A stretch of DNA of 64,000 nucleotides. Origin: Liolophura sinensis (lineage: Eukaryota; Mollusca; Polyplacophora; Chitonida; Chitonidae). The notes under the pieces were generated by a model. The model saw nothing but the letters and a program-made list of their open reading frames with translations, had not been told where the DNA came from and searched no databases. The position numbers and the translations under genes are program-made. The DNA is taken from assembly GCF_032854445.1 (NCBI RefSeq), contig NC_088295.1, positions 54,727,249-54,791,248 on the forward strand. Direction: 5' to 3'. Shown here in pieces: positions 30,101 through 62,900 of this stretch; within the stretch, counting starts at the first letter, position 1, and each line of letters opens with the position of its first letter.

Positions 30101-30310
30101 CAGCACTCCAGCGGTTTCCGACGGCAATTCTCCTCCTTTTGGGCAGTCCAAAAGGAGTCGCCCACAGCGGATTTTGGCGCTGGCTTTATTTATAATTTAT
30201 CAACTTGAGGTACATATTAGAATTTTTAAAGGCATACACCTGAGAGCAAATGCATAATCTTTTCAATGGTAGTTGATTGATATTTAAATTTTTTTCTCCT
30301 TTAAGTGAGA
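27151..30310. other. Gene-free stretch upstream of the neuropeptide gene
   Basis: No exon is confidently seen. I searched here for a signal-peptide exon ending in phase 1 that would splice to 30,361. The candidates were too short or in the wrong phase (for example the ATG near 29,943, which would give only about 10 residues). Confidence 0.4.
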
Positions 30311-30314
30311 TACT

Positions 30315-31211
30315 ATGCTTAAACCCGTTGAATGGCTTATTTTTTTTTGTTTCCTTGCAGGCAAATGTTCGGGCGAGTGGTCACTGCAAGCTTGCTTGGG
30401 AGGTAAGCTGTGCGAAAATGGCGTGGTACATTTGGATTAGATTAAATATATGCATAGGATCTGTTGTTCAGAAATCTGACGAAACAGGCCTCATTGCAAC
30501 CAGGACCTTCGAAATAATCTGTGACCACTGGATAACACGTTATTGTTCATATACAATGGACAACAGAAAATTGTAAAGCCTTCGATTAGTAGTTCTTCGA
30601 CCAAGCGAGGTTCTCTGGTAAGCGTTGTGCGTAAGAAACTACACGAAAGAATTGGCTTTTCAATGGCCATAGAAAGTGCACGTGAAGCAGCTGTCTGGAA
30701 AGGTTCTTTAGATTTCTCCACTTTTCATCTTGACACACTCTCCGAGTAAAGTCTTTCGTTGAATGGTTTCCGCATTGTGCTGAAGCTATTGTGCCCACAA
30801 GAACGAGTACTTGACCCACTAGAATGTCGTTATTTGCTTACAGGAAATGGCAAACGGTCCGGTGTGGACGGATTTTCCAAAGATGACATTGCCGGCAACT
30901 CAGAGTTCTTAAAACGCCTCCTCTTACCCGAGAACCCGCCTCAAGGCTATCGGCAAGACGAAGCAGAAGATATCCCAAGGGAATCCTGGTCCACCAGCCA
31001 GCTGGATGAAGATTACTTAAACCAATCACCCAAACCAGATGTCATGTACCAGTTGCTGCAAATACTCGGCCGGTTGAAAAAGGTAGACATTTACACAAAA
31101 GATGGAGTCTGTTCAGGAACAATTGAAACCAGACTTTTTGATTGTTTTTCGTCTCACGAAAATGAATTTAGCATTCAAAGAAAAGATACAATTTTCAGCA
31201 CATCCAATTAA
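30315..31211 (+). CDS. GGN-amide (GGNG/CCHamide-related) neuropeptide precursor
   Basis: Seen: exon 30,361-30,402 (phase 1 donor gtaagc) and exon 30,844-31,211 (acceptor ttacag) join to read KCSGEWSLQACLGGN then GKR. Two Cys are separated by eight residues, followed by GGN, an amidation Gly and a dibasic cleavage site. Known: annelid GGNG excitatory peptides and their gastropod relatives have this C-x8-C-x-GGN pattern and a disulfide ring. They are secreted peptides acting on muscle or gut through GPCRs and are related to arthropod CCHamides. After KR follows an acidic spacer with another possible site (FLKR) and a C-terminal PDVMYQLLQILGRLKK block. The 5' end is ambiguous. The frame runs back without a stop to ATG 30,315, giving a short hydrophobic leader (MLKPVEWLIFFCFLAG). 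However, the same bases form a strong polypyrimidine acceptor ending in CAG at 30,360, so the leader may lie in an upstream exon. The 3' end is either TAA 31,209-31,211 or a donor near 31,082. The intron interrupts the mature peptide at its GG. Confidence 0.75.
30361..30402 (+). CDS. GGN-amide precursor exon carrying the peptide core
   Basis: Forty-two bases encode KCSGEWSLQACLG plus one base of the next Gly codon, followed by a consensus donor GTAAGC. The acceptor would be TTTCCTTGCAG. If the upstream ATG at 30,315 is used instead, this exon simply starts further 5'. Confidence 0.7.
30844..31211 (+). CDS. GGN-amide precursor 3' exon (processing site and C-terminal spacer)
   Basis: It starts after TTGCTTACAG and completes Gly, then reads N-G-K-R, giving the amidated terminus. 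The frame stays open for about 120 codons to TAA. A possible donor GTAGAC follows the GRLKK codons (31,082). The part beyond that is less biased and may be intronic. Confidence 0.65.
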
Positions 31212-31420
31212 TAGTCGCTACATTTGTGTTATTGTGTGCGTACAACTATACATTATCAGAAGTACAGAAAAGTAAACCGTTTATAGACGGGAAATGTCCC
31301 ACATATTAGACTATACCGTTGGCAAACAACATACTCTTAATAGTTTATTTTAATGGCAACAGCGGCAATACTGTTCACCCTGTCGTTAAATATGTCACTC
31401 TCACAATGTAAAACGTGTAG

Positions 31421-31612
31421 CTTTTACAATATCTTAACTCTCTGTTCCATTTGAAAGCTTCTAGGGACAGAATGATGTCAGTTACGTTGTGATGGCTCGA
31501 CACACAGGGTGCTCACAGCTTTTACAATATCTTAACTCTTTGTTCCAGGTGAAAGCTTACAGGGACAGAATGATGTCAGTCCCATTGTGATGACTCGACA
31601 CACAGGGTGATC
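31421..31612. repeat. 98-bp tandem duplication
   Basis: Units starting CTTTTACAATATCTTAACTC at 31,421 and 31,519 are about 90% identical through GACAGAATGATGTCAGT and CTCGACACACAGGGTG. A two-copy tandem duplication, about 200 bp beyond the neuropeptide stop codon. Confidence 0.88.
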
Positions 31613-34043
31613 AGCTTTAACCCTCCGAGAAGAGCAATGACAAAACAGTTCAAGATTTCCATATTTTCCTTGACGATTCAAATAACTGGGCGATAGATGA
31701 AAACAATTTTATGGACGTGCACTTATGCTTAAAAAACTACAGTGGATGGATTTTCAAAAGATTCTATATTATTTGGGAAACCTTAAACTTAAACCCCTGG
31801 AAGAACTTTCTCGCCCTTTGTTCAAGGCTTTCTTAAATTTACCTGTGAAACTCCTGAGCATTCTGTTTAAAGATTCTATTAATCTTCTTCGTCTTCTTCA
31901 AATCGATAATTCCCATTCACTGACAAGTGTCCATGATAGTCAGTAGCCTACCGTTGCATGTCCGAAAAGTGACACTTTCAATAACAATCCGGATAAGCCG
32001 AGGTTAGGTTTTCGCTTTGACCTGTTTTCTGACAAACCCGTTGTCGTGTAGGTGAGTAGGACAGTGAATCCATCTCAAAGCGCTCTTAATGCTATGGCAA
32101 TTTCAAAAATCAGGTTTGCTCTGTAACATAAAGGGTGCCTCACTGAGTGTAATATTGTAGCGGAAATCAGAGTAAGTGACCATACAGATAGCTATTGTGT
32201 TTCCCCAGGAACGGGTGGGCTGAATGTAGGCATGTACACACTTTGCCTCCACAAAGGTGCAGGCTGTTGAAGCCCCATGTGAGTGACAGCTCCACAGGGA
32301 TGTTCCGCAGAGACTGATCAGACTGGCATTGTCAATGGCTCCCTTTCGTAGCGTCAAATGTTGATGTTTCCGGACACAGAGATCATAAGGCAGGAAGCCG
32401 CGTTGACGTACTTTCTGATCCCACCTCTCTTTCCAAAAATTACTTGTATTGGGACCAGTTTAGTTCCCATAAGGAATTTGCTACTTAAGACTTCATATAC
32501 ATTCCTTGCCTACCGACCCTAATGCGATACTGGCATAAATCTCTCTTGAGTACGAACCGGCGGCAGCTTGCGTTGCTTGCATGCAAATGGTAAATGTCAA
32601 AAAGGCACTCAAATATTATGCCAGAACAAAAGAAAAAATTCTGACCTGTTAGAAATTTAATAAAGGCAAGTGGACCTGGAACTGTCGCTTTGGATAAGAG
32701 TCATGGGGTTAAATGAATTGCCTAAATTGGTAATGGCAACTGTGCTCTGCCCTCTTTCTACATAGACAATACCCAAACAAAGACTTGTTAACTCAAATGT
32801 GTAATAGAACATACCTTACGAACTAACTTCAGGAGAGATTGTGTTGTAAACTAAGTAAGAGCTAGGTGTTGTAATTTAAGCCGCATGTGCTTTAAAGATA
32901 ACGCATTGTTAATTCTGCACATATTTGTCTTGTGTACATATTGCCGAAAAAATAAAAAAAATGGACTACCTTTTGTCGATATGAAGACAAAAAAACACTA
33001 TGGTTGATAAATCGGAATTCAGCTTTTAGTTTTGTCAAAATTAATGTTTTGAAAAAGTGGAATTTTGTTGAAATAACAGAGTTGATGTTTCCAAAAAGCT
33101 GTTATGTTAGTAACGCTGGTATCTCTTTCAAAGCGAGAACATGTGTGATGTTAAAAGAAATCTAGAATTGCATTGAGCATATGTGATAATCTGCATCTAG
33201 GTCTATTTTAGGTACAGTAAGCAGCCAAATCAACAATATTCAGTAGTTTGTCTTGTAACCTTTCCTTGCATGAAAAGGAAATGAAAACTCCCTTAGAAAT
33301 GCACAACTAAAAAACAATTAATTTGGATATAACTTATGTTCTCTGAGAAAACGGAAAACACCATTCCGCATAAATGAATAAGGTTTCATCAATCAGTGGA
33401 GGAATGTAGAGGTACAATTGCATTCATTTCATTGAGTGAGATGTCGAAAAAATTCCAGAACTGGAATGCAGTGGTTAAAGATAACTTCTTACGCAAATGT
33501 TTGCATACTACCAGGTTCAGTTTCCACAAAAGACATTTCATTATTGGTAGATGTTGTTTGTTTTGATCCGCCATTCATTTTATGCTGTGCGTGATGTCTG
33601 CGTCTCAATTTCTGGTAAACAATGTTTGTTTGTTTTTTATTGGTGAATATAATGAACTTCTATTCAAAATAAATGTGTACTGGCCTTGGCGTGCATGACT
33701 GGTTGTCACAATAAAGGTTGCATTTGGAGCTACGTCGGGGAAATCTGGCAGCGTTTGTTGTGTTAGTTGTTTAATCTCGGTGGCATATATAACGGGTATA
33801 TATAGTGGTTAAGGGTGATATCGACCTTTTCGAGGACTGAGTCAGCAACTGAGTCGTGCTGAAGAATATGTCTCTTATTTATGTTATCACGGTAAACTTA
33901 GTCTGAATATAGAATTGAGTGGAACGGTTGGAAAAGCGGCACCGATCCTGACGTCACAAAGACCCTAACTTAGGGCCACAGACGAGCACATGACTAAATT
34001 GCGTAAGATTATTGCAGCACACGGTTTGAATGCCAACAGAACA
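31613..34043. other. Gene-free stretch with weak open frames
   Basis: Two unrecognised open frames are noted. One is a leucine-rich 73-codon ATG frame on + at 31,725-31,946. The other is a Cys-rich frame on - at about 32,103-32,430, described separately. No repeats are recognised. Confidence 0.4.
32103..32430 (-). CDS. Possible Cys-rich exon, unrecognised
   Basis: The minus strand is open for about 108 codons down to a TGA. It includes a Cys-rich stretch (SLCGTSLWSCHSHG, TACTFVEAKCVHAY) and an N-glycosylation-type NIT. Preceding it is TAA with only a weak AG acceptor. Length alone is not significant in 64 kb. The even amino-acid composition is suggestive of a secreted or extracellular segment, but no family is recognised. 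Confidence 0.2.
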
Positions 34044-35190: not shown

Positions 35191-36960
35191 TGTTTGGTGT
35201 TTGGTTAACGATTAAACCATAATCCATCCACATAAAACAAGGTATTGTGTTTTGATGTGTATTTGAGAGCAAGAAAGGAGGCTAGTTGTCTTTGCACCAT
35301 ATGTGTACTTCAGGGACGGTGCCTGTTTATTATAAAAACAGGCTTGTGGTTTACATGTTTCCTTTGCTATCACCAGCAGTATTCGAGAATTCGGTTTGTC
35401 TTTCTTTTATTAACTGTTTTTACGAAATGAGCGTAATTCAATTGAAATAGTTGGCGTTTCATCTATTTTACTGTTAATAAATAAATAAATTAATTAATTA
35501 ATTAATTAATACACTAAGTTCATCTATGTTGGTTTGGCTCATTAGATTATATTTGGTCAACAGATGAATGGATCGGGTATTTGTACAATAAATGGCTTTT
35601 CAAATGAAGTGCCTTTTCCCGTGCAATGGCGACCCAGGTCCAAGCTGGACGGACCATTGTTCTCTTGTGACATTTGAGTACTACGTTTACGTTCCCATTG
35701 TGCTCAGCAATCGTGATCACAAAGATAGGAGTGAACAATGGACTTCAGGGCTGAGATACGCGTTATTTAGGCCGGAAAGATTCCCTATTACCAGCACATC
35801 ACTCGACAACACATGTCACATTTCACATATCAGAGATTTTTTTTTTATCTGAATTGTAATTTTATCCCCAGTTCTTCTAACACATAGCAACAACTATAAA
35901 TGTATTTGGTAAAACATAATTGCTGCAATGAAAAATGTGTCTATAGCCCAGTTCATGTACTACAGTATCGGAAACTGGTATTGCAAAGTTTACTAACGAA
36001 ATCATCAAGATGTCCCTTTTCTTTAAAACTATGGTCATAGCCTTCGTGCAGACAGTAAAGGCCGATGGCCCACAAGCGCAAGATATCTACCGCCTACTTT
36101 TTTATGTCGTCTTGAACACAGGTTCATCGTTAAGAGAATGGCTCACGCTAAAAACTCAGGTGTCGGCAAATTGAGCGAATTAGAGAGCTGTATGCTTATC
36201 GCAACTAAACAAATCCAACAACACAGCCAGTTATAGAAATCTGGTCGTGGTAGAACTAGAGTGGTAGAAGGCCCCGATTGTTAAGACTGACACGTATGGA
36301 GGACCACTGCGTACTTTATACAGCCACGTGAGTCTTTATCACAAACACAAATACATCTCAGTCAGTCTACTATATGGCAAAATGTTTTAACCTACATGTA
36401 TAAGCCGCCGTCAACGATAACCTTAAAACGTTGTGAATGCGTTCAAGATAATCTTTTAGAGGTTAGATGATGACATTCTGAGGTTGTGCAGTAGGGTACC
36501 ACCGTGTCAGTTACATGTAGGTGTCTGAAGACACTTTGAGGGAACACCTGAGGGTCATCCACACAGCCTGAGGTACACAATGGAACACTAGAGGGGCATC
36601 AATGCACAGCTGTTACGTCCATGTCCTAAATGCGATACATTTCTTCTGACCTCAGGAGTGGATCTTCTCCATGTGGTGTTCAACTGTTCATGTGGTGTTA
36701 ACAAGTACAACTGAAATGTACTATTAGTGCATGGGATACGGACCTTTAGGATTGCGACCGATTAGGTGGGTTGAGTTCAGAGACATAGTCACATAGTTGA
36801 GAAGCGCAATGTTCTTAATCTTAACAAGAGACATCTTATCTGCTCCCACATAAATGAACAGAAGTTCGAGAGCCATAATTTAAAAGAGACCTTTAATTAG
36901 GAATGAACTGACGTTGAAAATGTGGCGTAAGTGAAGTTGTTCATAGAATTACAGAAATAC
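35191..36960. other. Gene-free stretch upstream of the TECR-like gene
   Basis: Contains a (TAAA)/(TTAA) microsatellite at about 35,477-35,510. I found no exon encoding the ubiquitin-like domain that usually precedes the TECR membrane domain, but I could not exclude a short one. Confidence 0.4.
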
Positions 36961-36967
36961 TGCGGCC

Positions 36968-37723
36968 ATGGTATCTTTACGCTCAGACAGTACCAGAGGT
37001 TTGAACCCGGTACCTATCACTTCTGTCACATATCTAGGAGCAATCGTCGTCTTTTTACTGGGTAGCAATCTGCGTGGGTTACCAGAGTTCAAACAGCCGG
37101 GCCCTGGAGCTTGGTTACCAGAGACTCTCTCCAGTGCCAGTCACATCCCCACCTTTATCACCATGGCAGCTTGGGGAGAACATTACGTACGTCGCTTTGC
37201 AGAGGTGTTGTTTGTGCATAACTACAAACGCAAAATGACATGGGTGGAGAGTTTTGGCGCACCGCTATATTACTGGCTATTCGGCTTTTTTATTGGCTGG
37301 TCCGTTAACTACAAGCTCTCTTACCACAGCCCTCATTTGGGATTTTACTGTGCCGGATTAGCTTTGTTCATCGCTGGCGAAGTAGGTAACTGTGTTTGTC
37401 ACGTGATGCTTAAAAACTTAAGGAAACCACCAGATTCAGCCGATGAGACGCCATCTTTGCCAACCTCCAGCCACGTTATTCCTCGTGGATTTCTGTTTGA
37501 ACTGGTCTCGTGTCCCCACTACTTCTGTGAGATTGTTACCTGGTTTGGATTCCTCATGATGACGTTTACATTAGCAGTGGCTTTGTTCCTTCTGGCCTCC
37601 GTTATAACTCTGATTTCATTATCAAAGGACAAACATAAAGCCTATACAGATGAGTTTAATGGAGACAACGGCAAGGAAATGTACCCACCATCTAGAAAAG
37701 CACTCATACCTTTTATACTTTGA
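36968..37723 (+). CDS. TECR-like trans-2-enoyl-CoA reductase family membrane protein, intronless
   Basis: A single 251-codon frame starts at an excellent Kozak context (GCGGCCATGG), with an in-frame TAG about 20 bases upstream. The family (TECR/Tsc13, steroid 5-alpha-reductase C-terminal superfamily) carries out the last NADPH-dependent step of very-long-chain fatty-acid elongation in the ER membrane. Diagnostic segments: HYVRRFAEVLFVHNYKRKM (res 72-90), a GEVGNCVCHVMLKNLR block (137-152), LVSCPHYFCEIVTWFGF (179-195) and the C-terminal KHKAYTDEF ... YPPSRKALIPFIL. Tyr185 aligns with the catalytic Tyr reported for human TECR (Tyr248). Hydrophobic segments near 17-33, 96-113, 121-140 and 193-218 fit a multi-pass protein. 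Odd points: the N-terminal ubiquitin-like domain of canonical TECR (~308 aa) is absent, and there are no introns. It may be a retrocopy, a short TECR-like paralogue, or the last exon of a longer gene (AATTACAG just upstream could be an acceptor). The intact frame and conserved motifs argue for function. Confidence 0.85.
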   Translation: MVSLRSDSTRGLNPVPITSVTYLGAIVVFLLGSNLRGLPEFKQPGPGAWLPETLSSASHIPTFITMAAWGEHYVRRFAEVLFVHNYKRKMTWVESFGAPLYYWLFGFFIGWSVNYKLSYHSPHLGFYCAGLALFIAGEVGNCVCHVMLKNLRKPPDSADETPSLPTSSHVIPRGFLFELVSCPHYFCEIVTWFGFLMMTFTLAVALFLLASVITLISLSKDKHKAYTDEFNGDNGKEMYPPSRKALIPFIL

Positions 37724-43713: not shown

Positions 43714-46700
43714 TACACACTTACATACAATCTTTTACTACAAAGCATCTTCTTTGTTTCTAGTTTTTATGAGAGTTTGATAGCTAAGACCTGTATTTTT
43801 ATCAGCTATCTCACCTTTATCAATTCTCTACGATTGACAAGTTTTTATATTCTATAATATTTCGACATATCTCTAATGTATATCGACGGCCTATACAGTG
43901 TTGTAGATAATTGTCGATATAATGTATAGCATTTATGTTTGTTAAGGTATTACCGCTGTGACATCAAAGGAGCGGATAAAGGTAAACTGGCAGGTAAAAA
44001 GATTGGCATCAAAGACAACACGGCGGTGGCAGGTGTCCCTATGATGAATGGTTCAAAGATAATGGAGGGTTATGTACCGGAGTATGACGCCACCGTGGTC
44101 ACAAGGATTCTCGACGCAGGTAGATTTAAAGCCATTTAAGGAATCCTCTGGTCTGTATACGTATGAGTAAGAAAATCTGGATGTTCAACTAGTATAAGAC
44201 TGATATACAATGCTGGGGAATCATTTATTTTGTGCATGATGGATAAATGATTTAAACGAATAAGACTTTCGTAGAGCAACAAGCGGACTTTGATGTCGTA
44301 CACTGAAGAATACGTGTTTCAAATGTTCTTCTATGATACGAGCCATGTGAGTAATAAGTATCACGCTGCAGTCGATTGAACACGGTTCAATTTGTCATCT
44401 GTTTAATCCAACTTCAATAAACTATTTTGATCTCAACATCTTGAAGCCAGAGGATCAAACCAGTCAAAGAATAAAAATCAACACATGTTTTTTTTGTATC
44501 AATCGCTTATCCACAACAAGTATAACTTGCTTTTGACCTTCTGTAATTCTTCAGGTGGGCATATTGTCGGGAAAGCTGCTTGCGAAGACATGTGCATCAG
44601 CGGAGGCGGATTTAACAACTCCATTTCTCCGGTTTTGAACCCAGTCAACACGGAACACGTGCCTGGGGCTTCCAGTTCGGGCAGTGCGGCTTTGGTAAGC
44701 TGTCATAAACTTAAAAAATGCTTTGGATTTGAAATTGAAAGTCATTAGAGTAATTATCATGTGAATGCCAATGAATGTTGTCGCTATTCCTCTCTGTTTT
44801 GACGTCTTCAATTCATCCAGGTGACATACATGATGTATGGAGCAGGTGTTCCCTCAAAAGAAAGTACTTTCGCAAAACACTTGTTTCATACGGTTTCAGA
44901 AACGCTTTAATTGGCGTTAATGTTCATTGTTAAGTGAATTAAAATTATACGTGTTTTAAAAGGGGTTGTGTTGATTCTTCAAGACAGTTGTAATACCGCC
45001 TAACTTCTGTCTTTTTAGCTGGCTGCTGGCGAGATAGATTTGGCCACAGGTGGTGACCAAGGCGGCTCTATCCGCATCCCCGCCTGCTGGTGTGGTGTGG
45101 TCGGACTGAAGCCCACTTTCGGCCTTGTCCCTTACACGGGCTGTGTGCCTATTGAGATGACCCTAGACCATTGCGGACCCATGGCCAGGACCGTCCGCGA
45201 CTGTGCTCTCTTCCTGGAGGTAAAAAAATGGATGTTGTCTTACATTTAGGCGTATCGTAAAGTGAATGGTCCGTGGTAAATGATAGAATGTCAAACAAAC
45301 TGTCTGGCAGAATGAATTATTGGGTTAAATATAAAGTTTTATATTAAAGCAACGACCGGTTGACCCGTATTAGTATAATCGCTCGGGCGGGGAGGCTTGC
45401 TTGCTCTCAGTGTGTCGTCTGAGTGAAGCAGCACTAGATAAAAGAGCGGTGGAAATCCGTCCTGCGACAAGGAGGCACATTACATACACTCTAAGGACTC
45501 CTTCGTCGTCATATGACTGAAAAGTTGTTAAGTACAACATTAAACCCCAAGCACTTTCTCACTCAACACAAGGTAGTTTGCGACATGTATGACAATGTTT
45601 GTGACAGTCGATTAGCAATACAGCGATGCTGTTATATTAATTTACAGAATCCACATGTGGAAATCATGAAAAGCTAACCAGGCAGTTCAAGTGCATGTAA
45701 TTGCCCAGTTATTGTCCGAGTCTACGTTAAATGAATGGGCTTAATTTCTATTTCTGAAATAGGTGGTCTTTTAAACACTTCTGGCGAGAAAACTATTAAT
45801 CGCAGCTGAACCGTATTCAGGTACCACGGAAAGTGCATAGCTTATGAGATTATGACTTTTTCCAGTGAGCAGATAATGACTTGTATCCAATGTTTGAGCT
45901 GCACTTAATTAACGCATTTGTCTGTTTTTCTGATTGTTTAGGTGCTTGCCGGTTATGATGATGGTAGTGACCCAAGGCAGCCCCCGAACATTCAGGTCCC
46001 GGAATACAGTAAAATGGTTTGTACTGTAATGTACGCTATATTTATACGTTCTGTTTGCTCCTTAATGATGGTGTTGGATATACAGGTGTATTAGTCAATC
46101 CAGACGCCTTATTTATTGACGGACACCATATGGTGTTGAAAAAACAACGTGATATCACCAGCCTATATAACCATGTAAAGCATGTGTACTTTGTATTTTA
46201 ACTCCTAATTTAATAAATTTATTTATTTATTTACATATTTGATCGGTGTTTTATACGCCGTACCCAAGAATATTTCAATTATATTACGGAGGCCAGGCTT
46301 AAGGTGGGAGGAACCCACGACCATCCACAGGTTGCTGAAAGACCTTCCCATGTACGGCCGGAGAGGTAACCAGCATGAGCTGGGCTTGAACTCACAGTGA
46401 CCGCATTGGTGAGAGGCTCCTGGGTCATGCCCCGCGCTGGCACGCTAACCGCTTCGGTAACGGAGGTCCACCTGGGCGAAATACAAAGTAACCATATGTA
46501 CCTTATTAGTAGTACCGTCTCATTACGCCTTTTCGCATGGGAAGTGTGAACACAATTAATCCTTATCATCTTGATGTGAATAGGGCTTTTAATTCCCCGT
46601 GCATTCAGCTTGATGTGAATAGGGCTTTTAATTCCCCGTGCATTCAGCTTGATGTGAATGGGGCTCTTAATTCCACGTGCATTCCCCTGGAAAGCTTTGC

Positions 46701-56934: not shown

Positions 56935-59900
56935 GTAAGTGTAAAGATGGAGCACAGGGGGTCACTTGCACAAGGCTTTTTGAAAATGAAGGCAAACTTC
57001 GATAGACATAACTTATAATCAGAAATTACAACCCTGTTGTCAATATTTAGTCACCGCTAACATGATATTAAACCCGGTACAAACTCTTGATGAACTTAGA
57101 TGAACTGGTAGCTAATAATTTTCGCAAGAATGTGCAGTTTAATTGCCTCAAAAAGATACTACGTACAACAGCTTCTTCGCAGGTTGTTGTTATCTGATGA
57201 AATCACTTCAATGTAGAACTCTTTAGAAAATGAAGGCATGGAACGCTTATCCCTTGTACAGTGTCAATTAATACAGACCACATTTATGTACCGGTTCGAA
57301 TGAAGTTTGGTCTACGATCACAACTCCGAATTATAAATGCTCTTGTTTTTAATAGTCTTGTTTCATCTCTCTGTATTTTAAATATTCTTATTTCCATTTT
57401 CGGGGCCTCCGTGGCCGAAGTAGTTAGTCTGCCAACACGGCGCAATGACCCAAGAGCCTCTCACCAATTGGGTAGTTGTGAGTTCAAGCCCATCTCATGC
57501 TGGCTTCCTCTCCGGCCGCACGTGGGAAGGTCCACCACGACCTTGTGGATGGTCGTGGGTTTCTTTTCTTCCGAGATCTGCCCGGTTTCCTCCCACCTTA
57601 ATGCTGGCCGCCGTGGTATAAGTGAAATATTCTTGTATACGACATAAAACACCACTTAAGAAAAAAAATAAATAAATAAATAAATAAATAAATAAATTTC
57701 CACTTTCTTGAAGATGACCTGTGGAAGGCACCGGCGGTGCATCCCATATCACGTGAACAGGTTCAGGCAATATCCGATCAGCTCAGACTGGAGTGTTCTG
57801 CCGAAGATGTCGACTCATATACGGGCAAGTTTTCTAACAGATTCACTTACAATAAACAAATATATACGCTGCAGTTGGTCAACACAATGAGAGAAATTAT
57901 ATCTGATTGTTCCGACCAAGACTTGTTTGTATTTTTTCGATTTTGGTTGACTAGACCTAAGTAATGAAGTGAATGTATAATTAAGCAAACAAGGCATTGA
58001 AGCTGCCTGACTTCAAAATGTTTATCACAAGACTATAATCGCCAAATGTTTTTTTTTTCCTATTGCAGAAAGTATCGCAGGAGTGTTAAAATCCTACCAA
58101 CGAATTAACGAGATGGTGGAGCCAGCACTTCCGGTGAAGTATCCCAGAACCCCAGGCTACAGGCCACAGCCAGAAGAAAACCTTTTAAATGCATGGTAAG
58201 ATGAAAAGGTTGTCAAAATATAGGTACTCGGTGAAAGAGAACTTCTTACATTCTTTAACGTCAACTATATATATATATTATAAATACATCTGAAATCAAT
58301 GTCCTCGTTGAAAACGCGACGTTGGTTGATGTGTTTGCGAATCAACCAACTCCGTATTCTCGGTATCCAAGCAAGAATAGTTCTTTGCCCAGGTTGTTCT
58401 CTGAGATTTAACTAATACGCTTGAGAATTGATTCCTGGATGTACGACGATAACTTGAGAGGCTCAGAAAGTTCAGCTCGATTTAAATATCACAACAAACA
58501 TATCTGAATTTATAAATTAAAATTTGACTAAGATATTAGAAATATTATGATAGGCCTATACTGTTAGTTCTGCGGAACAACTGTGTTGTTTCTAATTAGA
58601 AGTCGTGTCGAGAAAATGTTATTTTGGTCATTTTAGCTCAATATACACTTCACTTCATGTAAAGGCTTGTTTTTAATTTTATTACTCTTTTGAAAGCGAA
58701 ACCTAGAACAGATTGTTAAGCCTACTTTACCTGCTGTCTGTCCCCACATCTTCATACGAAACAAAAAACTTCAAAAAAATGTGAAATAATCTGCAATCTT
58801 TTGGTATTTGTATTTTTTTCTTTCTGTAACATTTGCCTTTCATTAAGGTATTACCGCTGTGACATCAAAGGCGCAGCGACAGGTAAACTGGCAGGTAAGA
58901 AGGTTGGCATAAAAGACAACACGGCGGTGGCAGGTGTCCCGATGATGAACGGCTCTAAGATAATGGAGGGATATGTACCGGAGTTTGACGCTACCGTGGT
59001 AACACGAATTCTGGATGAAGGTAAAACCAAATATGACTTTTTGTGGGTAAAACACATGTTTCTGTTATTGTGACAACATTGCCACAAACACATGAAGGAA
59101 GATAATTGACGGGGGAAGGGGGCACGGTACTGACTAACGGTAAGCTGGTTGGCAATGGTGCGGCCTTTTTTTTTTTACCTGTAGAATCAAACCAAGTTCT
59201 TTTGTTTTCCAAATGTTTCTCCTGTGCACTAAACAGTGGCCAGTCACCACAATACGAAAACAAGCTCACGGTTTACGAACTAATATAAAGCTGTGTACTC
59301 ATCAACTTTTTTTAAACCGGATAACCATAACTGTTGTGCCACTTAGTGTTATTGACCAAAGTAGTACGGTATTCAAACAAGGGACGGTATTCAAACAAGG
59401 GACCAAGCAACAAATTTTTATATAAGCAGTGTTCATTGATGTAAGTTTGGCCTCGCGTCATTACATTACAGACAACGTCAGCTTTTAAATTTATTAGACA
59501 TTAGTCCCTCCTTACCATGAGAAAGAGTCGGAATTCCTTCTTCGCTGTGTTATTCTTTAATGGCTTTAAAAGACAATTACCATTTAATAATTTGTTACAA
59601 TTTTCTTCTTTTGTTTTGCCCAGATGTTAAAAAGAGAAGCTATATAACATGGCAAGTCACGGCTACGTCTTTTAGAGCTACGTGTTGAAAACGTCTGGAA
59701 TTCTGTGGAGATCGAAATGTACATATTCTGTGTTAAGGAGACTATTACGGAGATTTTTGGCAAAAAATCCATCAGCGTAAATTCAATACAGTTTCTGCTA
59801 TTATTAAAAAATAACCCCAAAAATTACTTTTCATAAAGTATTAACCTCGTTTGTGGACGTGTTCCTGTTCAAAATACCGAGACAATTTCACTTATACGAT

Positions 59901-62900
59901 GGAGGCCAACATTGTGGTGGGAGAAAACCAGGCAAAACCCGGGAGAAACGGAAGACCATCCGCAGGCGGCAGGCAGATCTTCCTACGTACGACCGGAGAG
60001 GAAGACAGCATGATAGAATAAATAAATACTATAGGTATGAGTCTGATATTTACTGAAAGGCGATAATTTGGGTTATTATTGATAAATACTCAAAATTCGA
60101 TATAGTTAGAGAATTTGTATTTTTGCGAAAAATCTCCTGTATTTGTCTCTCAAAATTCTGTCCCTATTTCACGCTTTGATCTGACGCACATTTCTCTGTC
60201 TCTCAAGGTGGTCAGATTGTTGGAAAGACGGCCTGTGTAAACATGTGTCTGGGCGGGGCGGGATTTAACAACGCTCTGGCCCCCGTGCTGAACCCTGTGA
60301 AGAAAGATCACGTCCCCGGAGGATCCAGTTCGGGAAGCGGGGCTCTTGTAAATGACCTATCATATCATACCAATATATGTATGTAGCAGGAACAAGCAGA
60401 CCTAACGCTGATTATTCCCAACTGCTGTCTAGATGACATGCCTCAGTGAAGAAAATATTCAACCATCTGTGCTTTCAGGATACATGAAAAGTTGTTACGA
60501 AAGCGAAAGATGAAGGAAAATTAAGAGAGACAGATCAAACAATTAGAATAAAGTCATTCTTGAGGCGTGTTTTATATGTCTTAATAACCTCTCTATTTTA
60601 TGAATAAATTCCGTTAATAATCGAAAATACTTTCGTTAATATTCGGAAATGAACTCACTGAGAACGCACGACCAGCTTAGCAAGAAAGGGTTCTCCCCCA
60701 ACAAAATGACGTCAGCACAGCAGGCTACATGATTTCAGGAGTGACCGCTAGGAAAACTGTAGTTTAAAGCTATTTTTATGCACCATGAAGATAGTGGAGA
60801 GGTTTTTTTACTTTTATGCATTAGGCCATATATCATACACTCCGTATTAAGAAATAAAAACCATGCTTTTCATGTTACGTAGCTTAATGTTAAATCTTGT
60901 TCTTTTTTTTCAGCTGGCCGCTGGTGAGATCGACCTGGCTACAGGTGGTGACCAAGGTGGTTCTATCCGGATCCCCGCCTGCTGGTGTGGTGTCGTCGGA
61001 CTGAAGCCCACTTTTGGTCTTGTTCCTTACACGGGCTGTGTGCCTATAGACATGACACTGGATCATTGCGGACCGATGGCCAGGACGGTCCGCGACTGTG
61101 CTCTCTTCCTGGAGGTAGGTTTTCATTAACCATAACATTATCATTAAAGGTAAAAATGGTTTTTGATGATAAAATTTATGACATTTTTTCGAAAAAAAAA
61201 TTTCACTGTTACAGAAAGTACTAACGATATTGTAGTTATTACTTTTAAATAATTATCTTAATTTGTTGAAAAATAACTCCTGTAGTAAAATTTGATCGGG
61301 CATAATTTTGCCACGTACAAGCGTTATGCAGGCTGATAACAAGGTCCCACAAAGAAACCAAGGTGTCTGGAGTTCAAAATGGATGCAGTAGTGAATTTTG
61401 TTATCATGACGTAGATTGGGGATTTATACCAGCTGGTGGGTGGCCTTCAGTTCGACAGGTAATGAGACCAAACCGATAATTTTGTTCGTTTAGAATCATC
61501 AAAGTACTTGTCCATACTTACATAGACTCAAAAAAAGAAACCCGTATGTATATTTTCACAAGATAAATCTACTTTAGATTAAAGTAGTAAAATTAATTTA
61601 ATACAACGTAATTTTAAGCCAAAGTTACACCGTGAGGAAGTCAGAGATTTAGTGATGACAAAATAAGCAACACAGAGAAAAAACACTTGTGTTAAAATCT
61701 AACTCAACAACTTCTGTTGCTTTCATGCAACACAGAAATGTGTTACCTCAACACAAAAATGTATTAGATAAATGTGACGTACACATTTTTGTGTTTAATA
61801 ATATAAAAACACAACTTTACCAAAATGAAGTAATGTATGCATACCAAACTAACTTGTGTTGGTACAACAAATATTGTGTATAACATCTAACACATCTGTG
61901 TTGAATTCTTGTGTCAGGTTTTCACTATAATCTTGCTTAACAACGTTAATGGCGTAAAGGTTCACCAGAAACAAGTTGACCAAATACAGGCTAGTGCTCT
62001 TGGATTCTTTAAATTACACTGCTTTTGTTGTGAAATTCGTGTAAGCAGAAATGACACTTTTAAGTGAGATTTGCATGTTATCAGACTAACTGATATTCAC
62101 GTATGAGTCATATAAAGATATTCGCTTTATATGAACTGTTCTACCTGTCACTCGGGAGTGATAGCAGACAGATAACCGACGCACACCAACTGGTGGATAA
62201 AGTTCACTTTCTTTATTCTCATGTACAAAGGGTACATCTCGCAATAAGCCGTAATGGTTGCACAAGATGTGGTTTGATGTGATGTATGGTAAATGGCTGT
62301 AACAAATGAAATAATTGTATATCTAAAGGGAGATAAAACTGAGACAAAAACACATGAACTTTTTCTGGGAGTTGTCTCCCCTGAATGGTTTACTTTGGCG
62401 GGACGATTATGAATAAAATAACTCGCTAGCATATAGCTTGCTATACTGCTTTGTCCAAAAAGAACTTAGTTTTACTGTTATGATTACTTAACATTATGAT
62501 GAACACTAAAACAAGCTAACAACACCTTATCAATGAATTACAGTACAGCTACGATTTGATGGTGCTGTTGTTGTAAAAGGTCACAGTTCAAATCATCGAC
62601 CGTCCATGTCGTATAACTTGGCTATTTTTACACTGTCGGCCAAGTACACAACAATGTTTATGAAGTTGCACGATAGTAGCTCACAGTTCAGCTCAACATT
62701 TAAATGACGAAACGGAAATGCTTGCTAGCAAATTCTCCATGTGATCAAGGTCCGATCAGGTGTCCAGCAGCTACAAAATTCACCTCCAAACAGAAAAGTT
62801 CCAAAGAAACGTATTTGCGATGCACTACATGAACTGTATCTAATGCCCTGGGACCACATAAGGTGAAAATGGTAACTTGATACATTGTGCTCTACATGTT

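Follow-up and report, generated by a model that had tools for sequence, protein, structure and literature searches.

The TEPs of the snail Thais and the GGNG/EEP peptides of annelids have two Cys residues, a GGN motif and W-[AM]-[IM]-H cores that include a His. As described in PMC6617912, members of the excitatory peptide (EP) family arise from a secreted precursor holding one amidated two-Cys peptide, and act on a receptor related to the bombesin and endothelin receptors. The effects given there are myoexcitatory in adults and ciliary in nemertean larvae; in one snail species, which has two EP precursors (Thais TEP-1 and TEP-2), the oesophagus and the penial complex are excited (PMC6617912). 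The same source places a His between the Cys residues "often," so it is no required feature of the family. Two bivalve members are the GGNamide of the scallop Patinopecten yessoensis, printed as GKCRGRWSIHACLGGN-amide (PMC5996578), and that of the oyster, printed as SKCKGPWANHMCFGGN-amide (PMC4200219). Insects have two CCHamide peptides with two receptors (PMC6617912, PMC6585902). Systematic surveys are lacking for Polyplacophora among others, according to PMC6425005, which itself samples some chitons; neither "GGN" nor "excitatory peptide" occurs in its main text, and its supplements may list chiton relatives of the peptide described here.

According to PMC6617912, receptors are the only true indication that EP/CCHamide peptides are orthologous to the bombesin and endothelin peptides. 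Chordate and echinoderm bombesin-type genes are described as having the neuropeptide split by a phase-1 intron and the C-terminal region by one of phase 0 (PMC12002301). No printed statement on EP gene structure was found in the accessible parts of the literature searched, most of it non-subscription. In bombesin genes, the peptide-splitting intron falls within a Gly codon, not many residues ahead of the amide.

The assembly analyzed here was printed as Liolophura japonica (PMC11068029), and the species was corrected to L. sinensis, a chiton (PMC12441733). Five tissues are published for it (digestive gland, foot, gill, gonad and heart), and none of those listed in the accessible text of PMC11068029 is nervous. 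The window is the whole stretch of 64,000 nucleotides at C1:54727249-54791248, and the genome searched comprised 609,464,459 bases in 632 contigs. The window contains a peptide exon, a phase-1 intron that splits the peptide and a GKR processing and amidation site, which lie as follows (a slash marks an exon boundary throughout).

30361 to 30402, plus strand: peptide exon (exon 2), (G)KCSGEWSLQACLG(G), 42 nt, phase 1 at both ends
30403 to 30843, plus strand: intron 2, 441 nt, phase 1, gtaagc...ttgcttacag, with the same position in a second gene at C1:63101645
30844 to 31082, plus strand: exon 3, with the (G)N-GKR site and a linker with an LKR site, translated as far as ...LLQILGRLKK

Positions 30363-30402 read AAA TGT TCG GGC GAG TGG TCA CTG CAA GCT TGC TTG GGA G and are followed by gtaagc; from 30844 the letters are GA AAT GGC AAA CGG, preceded by ...ttgcttacag. 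Joining 30402 to 30844 yields K C S G E W S L Q A C L G G N G K R, that is, KCSGEWSLQACLGGN-GKR, which can also be written KCSGEWSLQACLGG-N-GKR. The initial annotation had proposed this join, and reading the letters confirmed it, with a plausible donor (GGGAG/gtaagc) and acceptor (ttgcttacag/GA). Its claim that a phase-1 intron splits the mature peptide at the GG was borne out as well: the 441-nt intron falls in the second Gly codon (G/GA). A search of the genome with the 18-aa peptide as query found nothing, which the intron inside the peptide would explain.

The window locus is very probably a protein-coding gene for an EP (GGNG/EEP, CCHamide-related) neuropeptide precursor of L. sinensis. 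The annotation of the locus as a GGNG/EEP precursor is well supported by likeness to the known GGNamides, by a WAIH-type copy whose intron lies at the identical codon and phase, and by bombesin/EP-type receptors in the genome. The peptide has two Cys residues with eight residues between them, one of which is aromatic (C-SGEWSLQA-C), a feature of EP/GGNG/EEP peptides, and the join of 30402 to 30844 places a GG and a C-terminal Asn before a Gly and a dibasic amidation site (LGGN-GKR). The translated precursor shows a single copy of the peptide; its signal peptide may come from an exon 31 kb upstream or from a read-through. No Pfam family matched either the joined window precursor or that of the second gene. 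Elevenin was rejected as an identity because elevenin is described as non-amidated (PMC5627052) and a GKR site is present here. The two Cys residues, which give a Cys ring, argued against a bombesin-type peptide, the lack of a His-amide argued against CCHamide proper, and a repeat origin was rejected since exon 3 matches the genome at one place.

Together with the preceding Gly, the window peptide agrees with the scallop peptide at 12/16 positions, with that of the second gene at 10/16 and with the oyster peptide at 8/16. GKC, W-S, ACLGGN and the amidation are common to the scallop and window peptides, while R, R, I and H of the scallop peptide are replaced by S, E, L and Q (PMC5996578). The insect CCHamides (CCHamide-1 and -2) belong to a related family and, like the chiton peptides, have two Cys residues and an amide; they end in a His-amide, in contrast with the chiton GGN-amide (PMC6617912, PMC6585902). 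There is a Gln in the window peptide at the position of the His between the Cys residues, and the second gene has the His. The annotation was thus right that the core departs from WAIH-type members: WSLQ is unusual, and the other three of the four peptides compared have His where it has Gln. The two Cys residues and the GGN are as in the Thais and annelid peptides, whose W-[AM]-[IM]-H core differs from WSLQ. The suggestion that the peptide may be new stands in so far as a search of the paper library brought up none of the exact peptide strings; WAIHACLGGN and a Thais-type string were also absent from that library, however, so the absence is weak evidence.

Such a divergent core might mark a dead or nonexpressed EP duplicate that drifts, and has lost its His, while the WAIH-type gene works. 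The departure from WAIH and the agreement with the second gene at only 10/16 positions would fit this explanation, which we nevertheless consider very improbable. The splice sites of the peptide intron, both Cys residues, the GG, the N, the amidation Gly and the KR are all intact, whereas drift should have lost some of them; exon 3 is open through 80 codons; and 12/16 positions are common to the scallop peptide. Judged from its letters, the locus is a real gene with an unusual core that belongs to the known GGNG/EP family.

The short exons leave room for the idea that the motif was assembled by chance from intergenic sequence. The pattern pair C-x8-C-x-G-G/GT ... AG/G-N-G-[KR]-[KR], with its parts 40 to 10,000 bases apart on either strand and with neither the Trp nor a signal peptide used, occurred a single time in the window, and its total over 300 second-order Markov copies of the window was also one. 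Genome-wide, the pattern W-x4-C-x-G-G/GTRAG was present at 31 places (reversed control, 7) and an exon start YAG/GN-GK at 70 (reversed control, 45). When all 31 and 70 places were paired within 100 kb on the same strand, with the exon start downstream, only the window gene (463 bases) and one other gene (5,315 bases) remained. The 1 match in 300 simulated windows and this pairing argue against chance, to which we give almost no credence. By the paired-pattern test there are two GGNG genes in the genome.

C1:63101628-63107153: second EP-like gene, 8.3 Mb from the window gene and sharing its chromosome

The peptide of the second gene is (G)RCKGSWAIHACLGGN-GKR, of the WAIH type, and its phase-1 intron lies in the identical Gly codon. 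C1:63101645 reads (G)RCKGSWAIHACLGG/, with ttcttttaacag/ before it, and the next exon, 5.3 kb downstream, starts GN-GKRSPPLEPTLQNSIFFKRL. Its peptide exon is 42 nt if the acceptor just before the peptide is used, with the same Cys spacing and the same GGN-GKR; the intron is 5.3 kb long versus 0.44 kb in the window gene. Past GNGKR, the third exons of the two genes show no significant likeness (742/2,000 shuffles were as good), and by eye they have a short NS-x-F-x-KRL stretch in common.

No third complete copy was found by the genome pattern searches, which would overlook any gene in which the Trp, the donor or the acceptor had changed. Flanks were read for 17 of the 31 W-x4-C places, the two genes included; the remainder were 11 places in a G-rich repeat at C1:93.09/93.20 Mb and 3 that, by eye, have a stop in the matched letters. 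Among the 17, a Cys at W-4 was present in the two genes and at C6:72372813, which reads CMFMWVIYTCVGG/gtgag. This last place has the family Cys/Trp spacing and no GN-GK exon start within 100 kb, and it is probably due to chance. A single-exon pattern, C-x-GGN-GK, matched the genome at one place, C1:4098912 (control pattern, 2 places); it was rejected, since the letters there spell GKS, a stop lies three residues or fewer ahead of its GCLGG and the first Cys is missing.

Both chiton genes resemble bombesin-type genes in having a phase-1 intron inside the peptide, at G/GN in the chiton (PMC12002301), so that a peptide-splitting intron is not strange. For the C-terminal phase-0 intron of bombesin-type genes, the chiton exon 3 shows only donors in the right phase, AAG/gtagac in the window gene and TTG/gtgagt in the second (PMC12002301). 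Unlike bombesin-type genes, the window gene would have an extra phase-1 intron before the peptide, and bombesin-type peptides lack the Cys ring (PMC6617912), whereas the chiton peptide has two Cys residues. Should the peptide-splitting phase-1 intron be shared, it would add an independent character, open to scoring in whatever genome is at hand.

The extra intron depends on where coding begins. The initial annotation implied a start at 30315, which was not confirmed: the frame is open but crosses a very strong acceptor, and an intron is more likely. The features on this side of the gene are the following.

C1:54726637-54726718 (window -611 to -530; 530 bp before the window): putative signal-peptide exon 1, MTSRNFQRVLSLASIFLCLYLIPRPSE plus G/gtgagt
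1 to 30360 (window part; 30,890 nt in all), plus strand: predicted intron 1
30315 to 30360, plus strand: alternative read-through 5′ side, an open frame with an ATG and the hydrophobic MLKPVEWLIFFCFLA

The letters of exon 1 are aaaATG ACA TCT ... MTSRNFQRVLSLASIFLCLYLIPRPSE-G/gtgagt. In the window's own 30 kb, a strict scan for a separate signal-peptide exon gave 0 candidates and a second scan gave 3 poor ones. Exon 1 appeared only once the search went beyond the window: after 30 kb more DNA had been added, it headed a list of 24 candidates from the 60 kb upstream, its evidence being splice score and hydrophobicity. When both strands of 201 kb were scanned, a hydrophobic frame starting with ATG and ending at a strong phase-1 donor turned up 3 times, namely, at exon 1 and at the two genes' read-throughs, with thresholds that were set after exon 1 was already known. 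Signal peptidase sites follow a rule on residues -3 and -1. Splicing exon 1 to 30361 produces ...PSEG-KCSGEW, a fair site with Ser at -3 and Gly at -1. We therefore consider it probable that an exon 1 lying 31 kb upstream is followed by the 42-nt peptide exon between two phase-1 introns and then by the GN-GKR exon. In the 83 kb upstream of the second gene no comparable first exon was found, which lowers the certainty of this model. One candidate there, C1:63051026, was rejected, its likeness to exon 1 being no better than that of shuffled sequence (1,028/2,000).

The same EP gene could instead have its first coding exon at 30315-30402, where the frame reads MLKPVEWLIFFCFLAGKCSG (MLKPVEWLIFFCFLAG...), a possible short signal peptide. 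The signal peptide MLKPVEWLIFFCFLAG would then run into KCSG after a 5′-UTR intron ending at 30305, or the segment would be an alternative first exon beside exon 1. The open frame with its ATG and hydrophobic core fits such a start, as does a strong acceptor at 30305 directly ahead (20/3,528 were as good), but the frame runs through one of the window's two strongest acceptors, and the start at 30315 is doubted for this reason. The DNA of 30315-30360 is a polypyrimidine tract ending in cag/GC. By a simple weight matrix of our own, applied to the 3,528 AGs on the plus strand of the window, two AGs score as well as the exon 2 acceptor tttttttttgtttccttgcag/GC, itself included, so that only one other equals or beats it; the donor of this exon is GGGAG/gtaagc. 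The second gene is likewise open in frame from an ATG, and both genes' read-throughs pass the signal-plus-donor scan used for exon 1. Yet in the second gene, too, a strong acceptor lies at this codon and in this phase (13/3,528 window AGs do as well), and its read-through would add an extra Cys and a hydrophobic stretch ahead of the peptide. That read-through resembles exon 1 slightly better than the rejected candidate does, through a shared PRP stretch, but not significantly (142/2,000 shuffles were as good).

Polypyrimidine tracts encode Phe, Leu and Ser, and a signal-like read-through, with an in-frame ATG and a hydrophobic stretch upstream, was present at 10/149 strong acceptors when both strands of 201 kb were read, those of both genes included; it is therefore not rare for such a tract to mimic a signal peptide. 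In the nemertean Lineus longissimus, two EP transcripts are described that differ only at the peptide N terminus (PMC6617912), so an intron near that terminus, alternatively used, has precedent, and the pair fits a read-through start as well. We regard the first coding exon at 30315 as unlikely. The segment 30315-30360 is probably the end of intron 1 and possibly an alternative first exon.

On the 3′ side, the stop at 31211 given in the initial annotation is doubtful, since a phase-0 donor at 31082 and a drop in GC come first. The donor, AAG/gtagac at 31082, is weak, with a score of 1.3; the phase-0 donor at the end of the second gene's exon 3, TTG/gtgagt, scores 4.4. GC is 0.50 before 31082 versus 0.33 after it.

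31083 to 31211, plus strand: earlier 3′ extension, VDIYTK...STSN-stop, an open frame to TAA
31549 to 31590, plus strand: tentative last coding exon, VKAYRDRMMSVPL-stop, with the best-scoring acceptor listed between 31.1 and 37 kb (7.5)

From these signals, 31083-31211 is more likely intron 3, with exon 3 ending at 31082. The segment 31549-31590 is a possible but weak candidate for the last coding exon, and no homologous last exon common to both EP-like genes was found. A whole-genome protein search with exon 3 gave one match, its own copy (E 7.8e-49), and among viral contigs no relatives of exon 3 were confirmed. Window positions 31419-31613 form a 98-bp tandem duplication, of which the second copy holds the candidate last exon and the first copy has no acceptor AG.

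A partial human neuromedin B receptor sequence was used as a query against the genome and gave 131 scored matches. The genome contains four frames of the bombesin/endothelin/CCHamide receptor group, two of which were checked against the PDB.

C1:29.69, 29.87, 30.04 and 30.09 Mb (29687732-30087082; 0.4 Mb): four near full-length bombesin/EP-type GPCR open frames

The four frames match at E 2.9e-53 to 2.5e-67 and are 39-44% identical to the human neuromedin B receptor over ~298 aa, with the next match at E 6.6e-40; the class to which they are assigned is bombesin/EP-type, within which EP receptors and their close relatives, the elevenin receptors, are taken together. They form two pairs that are 62.5% and 57.5% identical within and 44-48% identical across. 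When one member of each pair was searched against the PDB, the neuromedin B, gastrin-releasing peptide (GRP) and bombesin-3 receptors came first. The next matches were endothelin B receptors for pair one and, for pair two, a somatostatin receptor just before endothelin B. The fifth match was rejected as EP-type and is galanin-type instead. One EP receptor is reported in the L. longissimus transcriptome (PMC6617912); given that number and the two CCHamide receptors of insects, four would be an expansion, and the chiton frames possibly represent an expanded EP receptor set. Within the range of the searches, three things appear to be new: the peptide (Gln versus His in the three compared relatives), the chiton set of two genes and four receptors and the gene structure. 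At C6:49564556-49717696 there are five GPCR frames of 400 aa with near-equal scores and 27-28% identity to the neuromedin B receptor, probably a tandem array of another type.

For the chiton, we infer every step that would follow transcription. The distant signal-peptide exon, 31 kb upstream, would be spliced to the 42-nt peptide exon and then to the GN-GKR exon. The precursor would enter the secretory pathway, where signal peptidase would cut before Gly or Lys, a prohormone convertase and a carboxypeptidase would act at the KR, the Gly would be used in amidation and the two Cys residues would close a ring. The monoisotopic masses calculated for the oxidised amidated products are 1548.68 for KCSGEWSLQACLGGN or 1605.70 if the N-terminal Gly is kept, and 1568.75 or 1625.77, respectively, for the second gene. 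Neurons would then release KCSGEWSLQACLGGN-amide, whose target would be one or more of the four receptors; this peptide would be a second, diverged EP beside the WAIH-type one that the other gene encodes. To judge by other molluscs and by annelids, its likely effect would be excitation of gut or reproductive muscle.

A joint reading of the genes and receptors, which we offer tentatively and hold to be rather doubtful, would combine two EP channels (WAIH-type and WSLQ-type) matched to the two receptor subfamilies, a phase-1 intron inherited from a common ancestor of bombesin and EP and a peptide exon that can be skipped. If it is true, the two chiton EP channels would parallel the two insect CCHamide systems independently. 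With two ligands and four receptors, this one animal allows the pairing of ligand copies with receptor copies to be tested directly. If the intron was inherited, gene structure as well as receptors would tie protostome EP to bombesin. In-frame skipping of the 42-nt exon, which is phase 1 at both ends, could give a precursor without the peptide.

Other coding features lie in the window downstream of the peptide gene. At 36947-37720 (plus strand), an open frame matches the Pfam domain Steroid_dh (steroid 5-alpha reductase) at E 1.2e-26. Amidase exons (Pfam PF01425) are present at 45019-45250, 58720-59070 and 60914-61126 (plus strand), and two of these pieces, at 45019 and 60914, have almost the same translation, suggesting tandem amidase genes.
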